From: Bacillus sp. NEB1478
GTDB lineage: Bacteria > Bacillota > Bacilli > Bacillales > Fictibacillaceae
DNA: 64,000 nucleotides
Reading direction: 5' to 3'
Assembly: GCF_031582965.1 (NCBI RefSeq)
Contig: NZ_CP134049.1
Coordinates: 2,418,001 to 2,482,000 of the forward strand
In this document: positions 22,961 through 62,752 of the stretch, piece by piece
Layout of the letters: the number at the start of each line of letters is the position of its first letter
Position numbering within the stretch: the stretch's first letter is position 1
The notes under the pieces: model-generated
Told to the model about the DNA's origin: nothing
Databases searched by the model: none
Seen by the model: only the letters and a program-made list of their open reading frames with translations
Position numbers and translations under genes: made by a program

Positions 22961-23029
22961 CGTTGTTATACTCCTTTCAAACACAAAACTTGCTATAAAC
23001 TTTTCATCCTTTGAACATTTAAAGGCAAG

Positions 23030-23112
23030 AAAGTCTAGGAATCATTTATTGGCTCCTCCATGAGCACCGAGAAAACAAAACTGACGACGAGATTCGACGC
23101 TTATTAATGATC
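23030..23112 (+). repeat. Intergenic repeat family, copy 1 (partial)
   Basis: The block from CATGAGCACCGAGAAAAC at 23060 to TTATTAATGATC at 23112 is almost identical to the 3' half of copy 2 at 23115-23232. The 5' half is divergent or truncated. No coding frame. It lies in the mtnW leader, antisense to mtnW. Confidence 0.75.
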
Positions 23113-23114
23113 TT

Positions 23115-23232
23115 CCAATCGTTTGATCATTTAGAAGCGAGAAGGTCGAGAAAGTGAAGGTTTCGAGGCGCGGAATGTAGTCCTCCTACATGAGCACCGA
23201 GAAAACAAAACTGACGACGAGATTCGACGCTT
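23115..23232 (+). repeat. Intergenic repeat family, copy 2
   Basis: A unit of about 118 bases beginning CCAATCGTTTGATCATTTAG and ending TTATCAATGATC, with a 3' half shared with copy 1 and a diverged third copy at 62480-62592 on the other strand. ATCATT near its start and AATGAT at its end form short inverted termini. Confidence 0.75.
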
Positions 23233-23252
23233 ATCAATGATCAAACACAATA

Positions 23253-25663: not shown

Positions 25664-25835
25664 CTCTTATCAAGAGCAGGTGGAGGGATATGGCCCGATG
25701 AAACCCAGCAACCGACCGTAATTCCATTGTGAAATGGGGCGCCCGCAATTTAGGGGGAGCCGCTGAATGAATGAATTAAAGCGTATGGCACGGTGCTAAT
25801 TCCAGCAGAACATTTTTGTTTTGCTAAGATAAGAG
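25664..25835 (+). promoter_or_regulatory. SAM-I riboswitch (S-box) of mtnKA
   Basis: P1 is perfect: CTCTTATC (25664-25671) pairs with GATAAGAG (25828-25835). Between them are the conserved AAGAGCAGGTGGAGGGA, GCCCGATGAAACCCAGCAACC and GGTGCTAATTCCAGCAGA blocks. P3 and its neighbours are longer than in the mtnW copy. The 3' strand of P1 is shared with the terminator stem, giving the switch mechanism. Confidence 0.95.
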
Positions 25836-31843: not shown

Positions 31844-31883
31844 AAAACAGCCCCTCCCTTAATCAGGATAGGCTGTTTTTTAT
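31844..31883. terminator. Bidirectional terminator after the importer operon
   Basis: AAAAAACAGCC and GGCTGTTTTTT arms around a T- and A-bounded loop. It serves the plus-strand importer genes and the converging minus-strand FIST gene. Confidence 0.8.
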
Positions 31884-34796
31884 GATGGAAGAAAATTTAA
31901 GAAAAACGTCAGCCTCGTTAGCCGGCATTGGTTTTGAGATGAAATACCCTTGAGCGTGATGGCACCCGTATTCTTTTAATAGTTTCAACTGCTCATATGT
32001 TTCTACACCTTCAGCAACGGTTGTTAAAGACAGCCCTTCGCACATCATGATGATTGCCTTAATAATTGCGGCATCACTTGAATTGAAGTAATCCTCACTT
32101 AAATGGCGGATAAAGCTCTGATCAATTTTTAACGAATCGACTGGCAGATCTTTGAGATAACTTAACGAACTATATCCCGTTCCAAAATCGTCGATTGATA
32201 GTTTCACGCCAAGTTCGCGAAGCTCTTCCATGATGCTGATGCTATATTCCACATTATGAATCATCGTACTCTCGGTAAGTTCAAGGTTCAGGCACTCTGC
32301 TGGTATACCGGTTAATTGCAGCACTTCTTTCACTTCGTATACAAAGGATAAACGCTGGAATTGCCTGCTGGATACATTTACAGAGATTGATAAATGAGCG
32401 GCACCTTCATCATGCCATTGTTTTAGCTGTTTACAAGATTCAAAGAGAACAAATCGTCCAATTTCATCGATCAGTCCTATTTCTTCTGCAAGAGGTATAA
32501 ACTGCATAGGCGAAACAAGTCCTAGTTCTGGATGTTTCCACCGAATAAGAGCTTCAAATCCATTAATCTGTTCTGTTTTCATACAAATTTGCGGCTGGTA
32601 ATATGGCACTAATTCACCTTTTTGAATGGCTTTGCGAAGGAAGCCTTCCAACCTTAACCGCTCCAGTGTAAAAGCGTTCATTTCCCCGGTAAAGAATTCT
32701 CGCTTTCCAAATCCTTTTTCTTTCGCTTTGTGTACAGCGATATCAGCATTTTTCAATAAAACATCTGTACTGATGCTGTCATCCGGATAAATACTGATCC
32801 CGATCGACGCACTCACTGTATACTCTTCTCCATCTAAATAAATCGGCATTTTTAACGCTTCTGTAATCCGTTCAGTCGTTTCAATAATTTCACCGGGCTT
32901 ATTAAGCGACGGCAAAATGAGTGCAAATACATCTCCAGCGAACCGGCATAACAAATCGTGGTTTTTCGTAGCCTGTCTTAATTGCTTGCTGACATGTTTC
33001 AGCACTACATCACCAATGTGATGGCCAAGGCTTTCGTTTATGATTTTAAAACGATCCAGATCAATAAACATAACTGCAAGCTTTTGCTTATTATGATCGC
33101 TTTCTTCCAAAAGTTCGTGAAGCCTTTTTTCGAACAAACTGCGGTTTGGCAATCCGGTTAATGAATCATGGAACGCCAATCGTTCCATTTTTTCTTCTGC
33201 CTTTTTCTGCCACGTAATATTTTTTCCGATCCCGTAGATTCCCACAACTCTTTGATTTACAACGATCGGAATATTGGTTATGCTGCAAACGATATTTTTC
33301 CCATCTTTTTTTTGGATCGTTGTTACAAATGTTTGAGGCTTTTCATGTATGGCAAGCTTAAAGTGTTCAATAACCTGTTTGTGATTTTCCAGACAAACAA
33401 AATCTAATGCAAGTGAACGCATCAATTCTTCTTGTGAGTAGCCAAGCGTTTGCACAAGTGCAGGATTGACACTCGTAATGTAGCCCTTCAGATCCATTGA
33501 ATAGATTAAATCAGGATTATGGTCAAATAAAGATTTATACCTTTGTTCACTTTCCAGGAGATTATCATTTAACTGCTGCATCTCTTCTGTACTTGTTTGA
33601 ATTAAGTGCGATAATGCTAGCAGTTCATCGATCTCTTTTGATTTTTCAGGTTTCTTGGCGCTGAATTTTTTTTCTAAAGTCGCGTCAGCAGATTCACTTA
33701 AAATCAACAGAGTAAGTGCATGTGACAGCAGATGAACTTGTTTCCCATCATGAAAATATTCCCCATACGTAAAGAAACCTGTTGTAGGAACAAATTGTTC
33801 TATAGCAAAAAACTCTTCTTCTAGTGTGCTTTTTAAAAATCTTCTTCTTGCCATGCACGAATACATAAATATAGATTCAGCAGGTTTTTTTTGCAGATCC
33901 TTTGTCACAATATCTATCGAATTTAATAAGAGGCTTGCATCACGATACCCGATTTGCAACTGATTTCCTGTCTGAATATTTTGGTGGAACGAGTAATGAT
34001 CTTCCTGTTCCGATGACTTAATAGACAAGGGGTGATAGCTTTTATCCTTCTTTTTGATCAGCGGATATTCAACCGCAGACTTTGGGAGGCTTTCGGCGAT
34101 CTCTTTCCCCATATATTGAGCATATAATTCATAGATTGACATACCATCAATCTCTAATTCTCCCCGTTCAGATACGTCTGTAACAGTAAACACCTTACCT
34201 GCAGGTTTCCACTCTGTATATGACATCGTACTTATGTATAATTCTTCACTATCAATAGCAGCTGCTACAACACCTTTATCAAACACACCTTCTTCCGTAA
34301 AAAGGCAAATGTTTTTGAAAAGTCCATTATCGCCTGCATTTCCGCCTGATACGATTACTTCCGGTGCTACGGAATGAATACCCTGCAAAAAAGAAGAGCT
34401 TTCCATGTACATGCCGTTACCAAATATGAAAAGCAGCTTCGTTTTTTCATTAATGAAATTTTGTGCAAGCTGCTTTCCTAATTCTTCACTGTTGTTATTA
34501 TCCAATAGTGGTATGTAAGAAGTTCGGGGGAAAGATTTTTCGAATACCGAAACAGAAATAACGGTCTCCTTTGTTGTCACACGGCCTTGCAAAACTTCCC
34601 CATCCGTTGTTACACCTATTATTTTGGCATCAGGCAAATGGATGGTTAGTTTTTCTCTTAATCTATTAATCCATCCCTTGTCGAGTCTTCCAGTGAAAAC
34701 TTGCACTAACATCTTTTTATGTTGTTTTATGTCATTTTCTTTCATCCATTTTTTGAACTGGATTTCATTTTTATATAAACAGTTAAAGGTTTTCAT
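31863..34796 (-). CDS. FIST-PAS-GGDEF-EAL protein, probable c-di-GMP phosphodiesterase
   Basis: 977 residues. Order of domains: FIST N and C sensory domains (about 25-375), a short helical link, PAS (417-530), GGDEF (543-700) and EAL (715-965). The GGDEF signature is degenerate (AGDVF at 620-624), so cyclase activity is unlikely. The EAL domain keeps EAL at 748-750, ELTEST, DDFGTGYSSLSYL and AEGVET, the metal and base residues of active c-di-GMP phosphodiesterases. No membrane helix, so cytosolic. FIST domains are thought to sense small ligands such as amino acids. It starts at an ATG behind GAGGTG. Confidence 0.9.
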   Translation of the reverse strand: MKTFNCLYKNEIQFKKWMKENDIKQHKKMLVQVFTGRLDKGWINRLREKLTIHLPDAKIIGVTTDGEVLQGRVTTKETVISVSVFEKSFPRTSYIPLLDNNNSEELGKQLAQNFINEKTKLLFIFGNGMYMESSSFLQGIHSVAPEVIVSGGNAGDNGLFKNICLFTEEGVFDKGVVAAAIDSEELYISTMSYTEWKPAGKVFTVTDVSERGELEIDGMSIYELYAQYMGKEIAESLPKSAVEYPLIKKKDKSYHPLSIKSSEQEDHYSFHQNIQTGNQLQIGYRDASLLLNSIDIVTKDLQKKPAESIFMYSCMARRRFLKSTLEEEFFAIEQFVPTTGFFTYGEYFHDGKQVHLLSHALTLLILSESADATLEKKFSAKKPEKSKEIDELLALSHLIQTSTEEMQQLNDNLLESEQRYKSLFDHNPDLIYSMDLKGYITSVNPALVQTLGYSQEELMRSLALDFVCLENHKQVIEHFKLAIHEKPQTFVTTIQKKDGKNIVCSITNIPIVVNQRVVGIYGIGKNITWQKKAEEKMERLAFHDSLTGLPNRSLFEKRLHELLEESDHNKQKLAVMFIDLDRFKIINESLGHHIGDVVLKHVSKQLRQATKNHDLLCRFAGDVFALILPSLNKPGEIIETTERITEALKMPIYLDGEEYTVSASIGISIYPDDSISTDVLLKNADIAVHKAKEKGFGKREFFTGEMNAFTLERLRLEGFLRKAIQKGELVPYYQPQICMKTEQINGFEALIRWKHPELGLVSPMQFIPLAEEIGLIDEIGRFVLFESCKQLKQWHDEGAAHLSISVNVSSRQFQRLSFVYEVKEVLQLTGIPAECLNLELTESTMIHNVEYSISIMEELRELGVKLSIDDFGTGYSSLSYLKDLPVDSLKIDQSFIRHLSEDYFNSSDAAIIKAIIMMCEGLSLTTVAEGVETYEQLKLLKEYGCHHAQGYFISKPMPANEADVFLKFSSIIKNSLS

Positions 34797-34909
34797 GCTA
34801 ACACCTCAATTAACAAGAACGTTCGAATATTATACTTCTATTATTATCGGTGGTATGTGTTATTTTTTAACAGTATAGTTGGAGGTATTTTTTTACAGAT
34901 GCTTTTAGG

Positions 34910-60290: not shown

Positions 60291-61358
60291 TCAGCTGATT
60301 TCCTTTTTATGATCTACTTTGAATGTATTTCTTCCCGATGTTTTCGCATCGTAAAGAAGTGTATCCGCTCTTTTAATGAGATTTGCTGGCTTTTCGCCAG
60401 GATGATGGACGGCGATACCATAGCTTAATGTTACAGGCAGAACCCCTTGGTTTAATCTGTAGGGGTATTTTTTTAAATGGTCATTCACTTGTTCGATCGA
60501 TCTCTTAACTGCCGATTCTTTATCTGTATGTATGATCCAGGCAAATTCTTCTCCCCCATAACGGTATGCAGTTCCTTCTTTCATTGGTAAATACCGTGTG
60601 AAGACAGAAGAAACAAGCTTCAGCACTTCGTCACCAACAACATGTCCATGAACATCGTTCACTTTTTTAAAATGATCAATATCACAAAAAACAAGTGTAA
60701 AGGAAGATTCATGTTTTGTTTTTTCTAATACATCTTCTTGAAATTTACGATGATTGAAAAGACCGGTTAAATAATCTTGAACAGACTGAAGCTGATACAT
60801 GTTTTTCTCAAAAAAGTTCTGTCGTTCCTTCGAAGCTAATACCCCGCCATATAAAGCAATCAGCCACAAAAAAGTACTGTTAATAAAGAAATTAAAAAAG
60901 GTTTTTGTTTCTAAATATCCTGCATCATACAAGAATAGGGATACGAATCCTGTAAATATGGCGGCAGCTAAAACGATAGAACCTTTTAGTCTCCAGTAAA
61001 TCGCAGCATGGATTACAATCAAATAACCTACTGGAATAAACGGACTTTCTGAATTTCCGGTAAGGAGCAGCAGCCACGAGTATACGATAAAATCAAAAAC
61101 AATACCTCCACGCGTAAATATCCGATAGTAATAGGATTTCTCATGAAAGCGCCATAGAACAAACTGAGTAGCTCCCATATAAGCAATTCCTATTGTTAAA
61201 AGTAAAGGAAATGTCTCTTTATTAAAGTTCAATACGCTCGCAATCGGATTGTAATAAAATAAGGGTACGCAAACGATTACAAAAAACCACCGTAAAAGTG
61301 ACGAGATTGTCTCTGAACGATGATCTGTTATTACAAATAAGTCTCTCATTACTGCCAT
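60291..61358 (-). CDS. Membrane diguanylate cyclase (GGDEF)
   Basis: 355 residues. Six hydrophobic helices (about 22-178) form an MASE-like sensor and are followed by a GGDEF domain with an intact RYGGEEF (GGEEF 268-272), DIDHFKKVND and DxLT-type entry (QDYLTGLFNHRKF). It should make c-di-GMP. The RxxD inhibitory site is absent (EGTAYRYGGEEF), so product inhibition through that site is not expected. The ATG at 61358 reads MAVMRDLF; MRDLF four codons later is an alternative start. The ligand of the membrane sensor is unknown. Confidence 0.88.
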   Translation of the reverse strand: MAVMRDLFVITDHRSETISSLLRWFFVIVCVPLFYYNPIASVLNFNKETFPLLLTIGIAYMGATQFVLWRFHEKSYYYRIFTRGGIVFDFIVYSWLLLLTGNSESPFIPVGYLIVIHAAIYWRLKGSIVLAAAIFTGFVSLFLYDAGYLETKTFFNFFINSTFLWLIALYGGVLASKERQNFFEKNMYQLQSVQDYLTGLFNHRKFQEDVLEKTKHESSFTLVFCDIDHFKKVNDVHGHVVGDEVLKLVSSVFTRYLPMKEGTAYRYGGEEFAWIIHTDKESAVKRSIEQVNDHLKKYPYRLNQGVLPVTLSYGIAVHHPGEKPANLIKRADTLLYDAKTSGRNTFKVDHKKEIS

Positions 61359-61466
61359 CTTCTTTCGTATTTATGTTCCTAATTCTAGAAATTATAGCAT
61401 ATGGGCATACTTCCCTGATAAGACTTTTCTTTACATATTAGTAAAACGGTTCATTTGGCACGGGAA

Positions 61467-62402
61467 TTATGTCTTGATTTCCCGTTTATTGCTATACATT
61501 CGTTCATCAGCTAGTTGAAGATAATAGTCAATATTTTCATATGCATCATTTAAGAGCTCTATAGCACCATAGGCGAGCGAAATGTCTTTATTCCAATTCA
61601 TAAGCTGGTTCTCCATTTTTTCGACGAGAAGATACGAATCTTCTTCATTTAAACCTGGCAGTAAGAATACGAACTCATCGCCTCCAAATCTAAAGCCAGA
61701 CGAAAGCTTTAGCCGTTTAGCCAATTCAGCAATTTGCTGCAGAAGTTCATCTCCGGCATGATGACCGTAAACATCGTTAATATGTTTGAAGTTATTAATG
61801 TCAAACATAACAAGCGTGATTGGCATTTTAATCTTCTTAGCATTTTTAATTTCACTTTCCAGACAATCATAAAAATAACGGCGATTATACAGATTCGTTA
61901 AAGGATCCCTGATACTGATCTCTTTTAAATCTTTAAATTGCTGTGAAGAAAATCCGCTCAAAAAGCCTGTTATCGAACGATGAGCCGCATGGTTCCATCG
62001 GTCAAGCATGATAAGCTGAATGTAAATATCTTCACTTTTAGTGACTTTCTTCATCTCTTGCAGTACGGCTTCTCTTATACTTGTTGAGAAACAAGCGAGA
62101 GAACGGTGCGGAATACGCTGATGCTTCAAAAAATGAATACCTGAGCGAAACGCTTTTTCCTCAGCTTGTTTCAAGAAGTCTTGAAAACGATGTTCTTTCA
62201 AAAACACAGCATGTACAATTCCGCGTAAAAATTTTTCCAGCACCCGCTCATATTGTTCAACAAAGCTGCTAAGAAAAGTATTAAAATCTTCATATAAATG
62301 CAGCTCTTTTTTATGTATATCAATCATAGATGGGATGGATTTTATAAATCTTTTATACAAATCTTTTTTGAGTGCGCGCAGGTCTAGTTGGCTTTCTTCC
62401 AT
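61467..62402 (-). CDS. Soluble diguanylate cyclase controlled by a c-di-GMP riboswitch
   Basis: 311 residues. An all-helical N-terminal domain (1-160) of unknown type, reminiscent of globin-like or four-helix sensors, precedes a GGDEF domain with intact FRFGGDEF (240-244) and DINNFKHINDVYGHHAGD. No membrane helix and no RxxD inhibitory site. The ATG at 62402 follows GAGGG; the TTG at 62417 lies inside that site. Upstream are a terminator hairpin (62439-62478), a repeat copy and a c-di-GMP-I aptamer (62598-62705), so the enzyme's product probably controls its own transcription. Confidence 0.88.
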   Translation of the reverse strand: MEESQLDLRALKKDLYKRFIKSIPSMIDIHKKELHLYEDFNTFLSSFVEQYERVLEKFLRGIVHAVFLKEHRFQDFLKQAEEKAFRSGIHFLKHQRIPHRSLACFSTSIREAVLQEMKKVTKSEDIYIQLIMLDRWNHAAHRSITGFLSGFSSQQFKDLKEISIRDPLTNLYNRRYFYDCLESEIKNAKKIKMPITLVMFDINNFKHINDVYGHHAGDELLQQIAELAKRLKLSSGFRFGGDEFVFLLPGLNEEDSYLLVEKMENQLMNWNKDISLAYGAIELLNDAYENIDYYLQLADERMYSNKREIKT

Positions 62403-62438
62403 ATTAGCAACCCTCAAATCTTCAATAATTTACATACA

Positions 62439-62478
62439 AAGAGCCATCCCCCTTAAGAATTAAAGGGAAATGGCTCTT
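62439..62478 (-). terminator. Terminator-like hairpin between riboswitch and cyclase gene
   Basis: AAGAGCCAT and ATGGCTCTT arms, extended by CCCTTT/AAGGGG, form a stem of about 15 pairs. On the minus strand it is followed by TTTGTATGT, a mediocre U-tract. Located 36 bases before the start codon and the best candidate expression platform. Confidence 0.6.
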
Positions 62479-62479
62479 A

Positions 62480-62592
62480 ATGCTTGATAAACTTGGAATC
62501 TCGTCTTGTTTTGTCCTTCCGGTGCTCATGTATTAGCAATACACTGAACTCCTCTGAACTCCACATCATCGATCTTCTAGCTTCAGAAACAT
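62480..62592 (-). repeat. Intergenic repeat family, diverged copy 3
   Basis: Read on the minus strand, TACATGAGCACCGG, ACAAAAC, GACGAGATTC and TTATCAA follow in the same order and spacing as in the mtnW-leader copies (23030-23232). I estimate about two thirds identity over roughly 110 bases. It sits between the c-di-GMP aptamer and the terminator hairpin. Confidence 0.6.
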
Positions 62593-62597
62593 TAATA

Positions 62598-62705
62598 TGG
62601 CATCGTTCCCCTTTGGCAACCGGCTGCCATCGTATGCATCCACATACTTTAGGCCCATAGCTTTGCGTCCCAGCTTTTCAACTGGTTTGCCCTTATTACA
62701 AAGGT
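62598..62705 (-). promoter_or_regulatory. c-di-GMP-I riboswitch (GEMM-I)
   Basis: The minus strand carries the GEMM-I core: GGGCAAACC, a GAAA-capped P2 (CCAGTTGAAAAGCTGG), the invariant GGACGCAAAGC, GGGCCTAAAG, a P3 hairpin (GTATG/CATAC) and the closing GGCAGCCGGTTGCC. These form the c-di-GMP pocket and the tetraloop receptor. It starts about 10 bases after the predicted transcription start. Confidence 0.93.
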
Positions 62706-62722
62706 TTTTATGATTTATAGTT

Positions 62723-62752
62723 ATTATATCCTATATAGGGAAAATGTGCCAA
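62723..62752 (-). promoter_or_regulatory. Promoter of the riboswitch-cyclase transcript
   Basis: TTGGCA (62752-62747) and TATAAT (62728-62723) on the minus strand with an 18-base spacer. The spacer contains the palindrome CCTATATAGG (62730-62739). Predicted start near 62716. Confidence 0.7.

Follow-up and report, generated by a model that had tools for sequence, protein, structure and literature searches.

Excerpts of published work describe the class I c-di-GMP riboswitches of C. difficile as OFF switches that act through terminators (PMC6366702), with all but one of 12 working in this direction (PMC3649979). In Bacillus methanolicus MGA3, predicted c-di-GMP riboswitches lie before BMMGA3_04760-04765, which the relevant section calls 'c-di-GMP turn-over' genes, and before sinI (PMC4342826), and in B. 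thuringiensis the Bc2 RNA lies before cap, according to an excerpt of the report (PMC4933901). A general statement in part of a further source has c-di-GMP riboswitches controlling both synthesis and degradation (PMC9495176). Class I OFF switches with terminators, and GEMM-I RNAs before genes of c-di-GMP turnover, are already known or predicted. For the Fictibacillus cyclase case treated here, with its proposed two-helix antiterminator and a repeat in the expression platform, our search of the open-licence PMC literature found no description.

The locus lies in a 64-kb stretch of DNA, hereafter called the window, and its features are collected in Table 1. The preliminary description had placed a GEMM-I aptamer at 62598-62705 and proposed a covariance-model search as a check; the RF01051 match (62701-62612, minus strand) falls inside that interval, covers the whole model (1-87; E 3.7e-14 over the 64-kb window) and scores far above the gathering cut-off of 35 bits. 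The good promoter claimed directly ahead of the aptamer is also present, and a pattern search detects a promoter at about this position in 19 of the 20 ortholog leaders. The leader folds far better than shuffled sequences (z -5.3). A terminator was found between aptamer and gene in 20 of 20 leaders, that of the window (62477-62440) being absent from the output of the consensus scan for terminators.

Table 1. Features of the cyclase locus, in positions of the window.
Feature	Position	Strand	Score or basis
Sigma-A-type promoter, TTGGCA-18-TATAAT	62723..62752	-	11/12 consensus matches
CCUUUG, putative closing helix (P0/P1 extension), 5' strand; 3' strand 62615-62610	62699..62704	-	sequence
GEMM-I (c-di-GMP-I) aptamer	62612..62701	-	RF01051, 80.1 bits
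Aptamer P3 5' strand, AAAGCUAUGGGCCUAA	62649..62664	-	predicted ON-fold partner of the terminator 3' arm (antiterminator helix 2)
Putative antiterminator strand (helix 1), AAAGGGGAACGAU	62602..62614	-	complementarity, folding models
Inserted hairpin repeat of 119 nt, from a dispersed family	62477..62595	-	model R1, 110.3 bits, E 3.6e-23
Intrinsic terminator: 15-bp stem, 8-nt loop, then UUGUAUG	62440..62477	-	MFE fold; -20.2 kcal/mol
Diguanylate cyclase gene: N-terminal fold modelled as globin-like, GGDEF domain, without RxxD	61467..62402	-	
Extended -10-like sequence ahead of the second cyclase, TGCTATAAT	61391..61399	-	sequence
Second GGDEF gene	60291..61358	-	PF00990, 116.5 bits; N-terminal part hydrophobic by eye

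The base that we take to set specificity (G20 in Vc2 numbering, mapped by hand) is a G in the window aptamer, AAGGGCAAACC as read by eye, and a cGAMP-type aptamer was rejected on that reading. Judged from its sequence, the window aptamer would bind c-di-GMP. In another genus of the family, the GEMM-I RNAs of L039, L043 and L063, which accompany orthologous cyclases, have an A instead of a G at position 20, a mark of cGAMP-type GEMM RNAs. The relatives L172 and L174 are likewise titled Fictibacillus, and the cyclases L035 and L036 retain the usual GD residues.

The first gene on the aptamer strand encodes an active-looking GGDEF protein, as had been proposed. Its GGDEF domain matches PF00990 with 109.7 bits, and the signature and the metal and GTP residues are intact, as in a diguanylate cyclase: RFGGDEF, D206, N208, F210, K211, N214, D215, G218, H219, G222 and D223 are invariant in 12 orthologs. 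The RxxD product-inhibition site is optional among diguanylate cyclases. It is missing here, in agreement with the preliminary description, since the residues ahead of RFGGDEF are LKLSSG, and it is found in none of the 12 aligned orthologs (by eye). The length of the closest orthologs, 311 aa, favours ATG 62402 (311 aa), which follows the ribosome-binding site GAGGG (62415-62411), over TTG 62417 as the likely start codon. The N-terminal half consists of helices. As the fold search with the whole model gave GGDEF matches, the N-terminal domain was folded alone, and the resulting model suggests a resemblance to globin sensor domains; the Pfam matches for this protein, listed up to E 1, include no protoglobin model, and His100, the candidate proximal His for heme binding, is retained in 8 of 11. 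Among known systems, E. coli DosC, a globin-coupled diguanylate cyclase, is one of the closest.

We found an orthologous cyclase in 18 of 18 genus genomes (56-100% identity), each preceded by a GEMM-I in the same orientation (78.1-84.1 bits). In the family, 23 of 34 genomes have the gene, and 21 of these 23 hold the pair, one gene copy being broken. Outside the genus, the riboswitch is present at three of five family orthologs, including L038, where it precedes the broken copy; L034 and L037 have the cyclase gene without it. A protein search with the cyclase gave 32 matches at E <= 1e-25. The first 22 (63-98% query coverage, 40-92% identity) are from Fictibacillus wherever an organism is named, and the closest genes include those of F. 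arsenicus, F. nanhaiensis, F. barbaricus and F. phosphorivorans; Virgibacillus litoralis comes next (33%), and the last eight match through the GGDEF half alone. The Virgibacillus locus L175 showed no GEMM core motif in a pattern search. GEMM-I occurs in 108 of 120 genomes of the order, and a GGDEF motif lies within about 1.5 kb downstream of two of the 29 new best-scoring loci of the order, as judged by pattern rather than profile. In the window's own genome, a single 3.93-Mb contig with 10 GGDEF domains and 5 GEMM-I matches, the first window cyclase is the only one of the 10 directly behind a GEMM-I (coordinate comparison). The suggestion that a riboswitch may provide feedback for a cyclase that lacks RxxD stands, with the pairing kept across the genus, and such feedback might conceivably take the place of allosteric inhibition.

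Whether the ligand turns the gene on or off could not be read, according to the preliminary description; the leaders of the relatives point to OFF, and the window's own leader shows no switching in the equilibrium model. Based on folding models, we consider it rather probable that this class I c-di-GMP riboswitch is a transcriptional OFF switch of the diguanylate cyclase gene, providing product feedback; for the window copy, the direction is taken from its relatives. We compared the leaders of 20 orthologs, L063 with its frameshifted cyclase copy having been dropped beforehand. Common to all 20 are the aptamer, immediately followed on its 3' side by AAAGGGRAA or a closely similar sequence, and a terminator, whereas the gap from aptamer to terminator is 9-25 nt in L039, L041, L043 and L015 and 120-255 nt in the other 16. 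AAAGGGRAA can pair with UUYCCCUUU of the terminator 5' arm (helix 1), and the P3 strand pairs with the terminator 3' arm in the MFE folds of L014 and L015 (helix 2). This two-helix antiterminator was adopted post hoc, after inspection of the folds. Against shuffled sequences, complementarity reached p <= 0.03 in 15 of the 20 leaders for helix 1 and p <= 0.02 in 16 for helix 2; significance was lacking for both helices in L039, L041, L043 and the window's leader, and for helix 1 in L064. The leaders come from close relatives and their aptamers are nearly invariant, offering little covariation.

We used full-length equilibrium models, which contain no ligand energy, pausing, strand displacement or tertiary contacts, to estimate terminator probability. 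With the aptamer locked, it was 0.94-0.99 in all 20 leaders. With the aptamer free, it was 0.00-0.14 in nine, 0.28 in L054, 0.52 in L064 and 0.69-0.99 in the remaining nine. An antiterminator excluded by the locked aptamer is clear in 9 of the 20 leaders, the window's own not being one of them. When the helix 1 strand was shuffled, 0-1 of 40 shuffles reached the native terminator probability in 10 of 20 leaders, in one of which (L057) the difference was only 0.95 to 0.96. In the nine responsive leaders, scrambling of helix 1 brought the mean terminator probability to 0.61-0.94, compared with 0.00-0.14 for the native sequence. Together, the locking and scrambling results argue for the OFF direction.

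In the mechanism that we propose, the terminator 5' arm would pair with AAAGGGRAA and its 3' arm with the P3 strand at low c-di-GMP, and from this antiterminated leader transcription would continue and the cyclase would be made. Binding of c-di-GMP would lock P3 and leave the terminator 3' arm without its partner, so that the terminator would form and cyclase synthesis would stop, a negative feedback by the product. As P3 cannot hold the ligand and the terminator 3' arm together, the coupling would be direct. Blocking of helix 1 by the bound aptamer through the closing helix CCUUUG:CAAAGG was considered first but found no support: this helix has a probability of 0.89 in an aptamer-only transcript of the folding model, yet at the decision point every one of the 20 leaders gives it 0.00, even with the aptamer locked. 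Helix 1 is stronger than the closing helix at that point in all 20, by 1.4-9.9 kcal/mol. In the folding models, locking of the core alone still lets helix 1 form before the 3' arm is made. With the closing helix unpopulated as well, coupling would run via P3 or via ligand energy outside the models.

The window's own leader belongs to the nine unresponsive ones, with a terminator probability of 0.97 both free and locked. Its complementarity is weaker (p 0.061 for helix 1 and 0.10 for helix 2), and scrambling has no effect, 5 of 40 helix 1 shuffles reaching the native value. The window has GGCUCUUU for GGCUUUUU, whereby helix 2 and the U-tract are interrupted and the terminator stem is longer; the stem is followed by CUUUG, compared with at least five U in the other 19 leaders. 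In these models the balance of the window copy appears tipped to the terminated state. It may be that the window species has lost the antiterminator and retains a constitutive attenuator, c-di-GMP regulation being confined to its relatives, a reading that we find unlikely. The features just listed, together with the altered insert flank and terminator stem, agree with it, as do the unpopulated closing helix and the fall of helix 1 to a probability of 0.00-0.01 once part of the 3' arm is present, with or without the insert. However, the aptamer itself scores 80.1 bits, inside the genus range, and helix 1 reaches 0.29 in a transcript ending at the start of the 3' arm; kinetic control could thus still operate at that decision point. 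Equilibrium folding ignores pausing and strand displacement.

An ON switch, in which c-di-GMP would relieve termination and raise cyclase synthesis, giving positive feedback and a commitment switch, appears quite unlikely. The B. thuringiensis Bc2 RNA provides a precedent, being a class I switch turned ON by antitermination, as stated in the excerpt (PMC4933901). In the window, termination is the ground state and a UGCCAU 3' of the aptamer can pair with aptamer AUGGCA in the MFE fold, yet this UGCCAU is found between aptamer and terminator in the window alone among the 20 leaders. Moreover, no second terminator partner that a bound aptamer could release was seen, and locking of the aptamer lowered terminator probability in none of the 20. 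It is most improbable that the element has no meaningful regulatory effect, being associated with the gene by descent while the true signal enters via the globin-like domain. The resemblance of the N-terminal domain to globin sensors would suit that explanation, and so would the family orthologs L034 and L037, but 18 of 18 genus species retain aptamer and terminator, and almost all retain the promoter pattern too, in contrast to the freely varying spacer between aptamer and terminator. The OFF switch is the reading that we retain.

The spacer of the window leader had been reported as 120 bases containing a repeat. The repeat is real: it is a 119-nt hairpin repeat of a dispersed family, and BLAST with the spacer gives 10 further genomic matches at E < 1e-4, independently of model R1, of whose eight sequences the spacer copy is one. 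The eight aligned copies share a hairpin of 37 pairs, and for 10 of these pairs at least one copy has both bases changed. With R1 we count 53 copies in the window's own genome; the other 17 genus genomes have 0-7 each and one genome of the family has 69, many of these genomes being drafts in which repeats may be collapsed. In the order, 57 of 150 genomes have an R1 match. Seven of the 20 leader loci have R1 matches and the other 13 have none; the matches are clear in L006, L008 and L013, the last with a second, weaker one (E 6e-5), and weak in L007, L009, L010 and L022 (E 5e-4 to 0.04). When the 120-nt spacer was searched with Rfam at a relaxed threshold for another aptamer or any known RNA, all 10 matches were below their cut-offs, and no Rfam family matched the hairpin repeat above its cut-off. 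We ruled out the spacer as a ligand-responsive part or second sensor, as it is a repeat dispersed in 53 genomic copies. The element looks like a mobile hairpin repeat.

Several genomic copies form tandem arrays with a period of 122-130 bp. Of the copies fetched, six are placed in the 16S-23S rRNA spacer and end 2-5 nt short of the 23S match (L025-L029, L033), and two of those rRNA operons have further R1 copies about 3.1 kb along, probably beyond the 3' end of 23S. A role of the repeat in rRNA processing is possible. Elsewhere in the window, a SAM riboswitch (23422-23304, minus strand) has two tandem copies of the repeat (23011-23114 and 23123-23244, plus strand) just past its terminator-like hairpin, in opposite orientation. 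A second SAM riboswitch (25664-25835, plus strand) has a long insert in one hairpin, 66 bases of which the alignment does not display.

In the proposed OFF switch, the hairpin repeat would fold on itself, and the switching strands would still be able to meet. We tentatively suggest, as a fairly unlikely extension, that it serves as a mobile, self-folding kinetic spacer, which would prolong the interval from the finished aptamer to the decision to terminate, gain and loss of inserts tuning the level at which c-di-GMP shuts the gene off. The hairpin might also be a processing site, an idea that comes from the position of the repeat beside 23S rRNA. Removal of the insert from the window leader had no effect in equilibrium folding, the spacer-timer idea being a kinetic one.

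A second cyclase gene lies downstream on the same strand, as the preliminary description had it, and is followed by an addB-like gene. Read-through into it, also raised there, is possible but not indicated, because the gene has its own extended -10-like TGCTATAAT, similar to sequence in L009, L010 and L013, and seems by eye to be missing or degraded after the first cyclase in four species of the genus (L007, L008, L011 and L012). The FIST-PAS-GGDEF-EAL protein mentioned for another part of the window is encoded at 31863-34805 on the minus strand.

Other GEMM-I RNAs of these genomes precede different genes. In the family, a sinI-like gene begins 20-35 nt behind the GEMM-I at 28 of 134 loci, spread over 27 of 34 genomes and including all 18 of the genus; a sinR-like second ORF follows in 27 of the 28. 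The GEMM-I of this kind in the window's own genome (L004, 385930-386014, minus strand) precedes a gene with a SinI domain (PF08671, E 4.5e-11). The short distance from GEMM-I to gene suggests control of translation. As GEMM-I precedes sinI in the same genomes, a single type of RNA sensor may connect the c-di-GMP level with both the biofilm switch and the synthesis of the cyclase. Another GEMM-I of this genome (L001, 3118592-3118678, plus strand) lies before a Spo0E-like gene (PF09388, E 5.3e-12), and the same ORF cluster occurs at 5 of the 134 family loci; through such RNAs, c-di-GMP may be connected to the control of sporulation. The remaining two (L003 and L005) precede a DUF5667 protein and a 62-residue, membrane-protein-like ORF. 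In the family, GEMM-I is also found before an apparent DUF192, pilin and prepilin peptidase cluster (names by eye).

The genus-wide case offers a tractable RNA product-feedback loop around a cyclase without a protein inhibition site, and its natural platform variants (short, one-repeat and two-repeat) provide a test of how spacer length sets a riboswitch. ERIC and bcr1 are dispersed palindromic repeats. In general description, the hairpin repeat is like them in its length of about 120 bp, imperfect palindrome, many copies and tandem arrays, and unlike them in that copies of it sit next to 23S rRNA and within a riboswitch. Families similar to bcr1 are listed with it in an excerpt (PMC2267715). 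With the C. difficile class I switches (Cd1/Cdi1_3 before flgB), the locus shares the GEMM-I aptamer, the intrinsic terminator and the predicted OFF direction. It differs by the repeat copy within the expression platform of the window leader and by its target: the excerpts on C. difficile name flagellar, surface, prophage and unknown genes, whereas here the target is a diguanylate cyclase and therefore synthesis of the ligand itself. B. methanolicus MGA3 similarly combines GEMM-I at turnover genes with sinI as a second target, a likeness in the kind of association; a mechanism is proposed here, while the relevant section gives none there (PMC4342826). The B. thuringiensis Bc2 RNA, as described in part of its source, likewise belongs to the class I switches of Bacillales and has both a terminator and an antiterminator, but it works in the ON direction and its target is an adhesin (PMC4933901).
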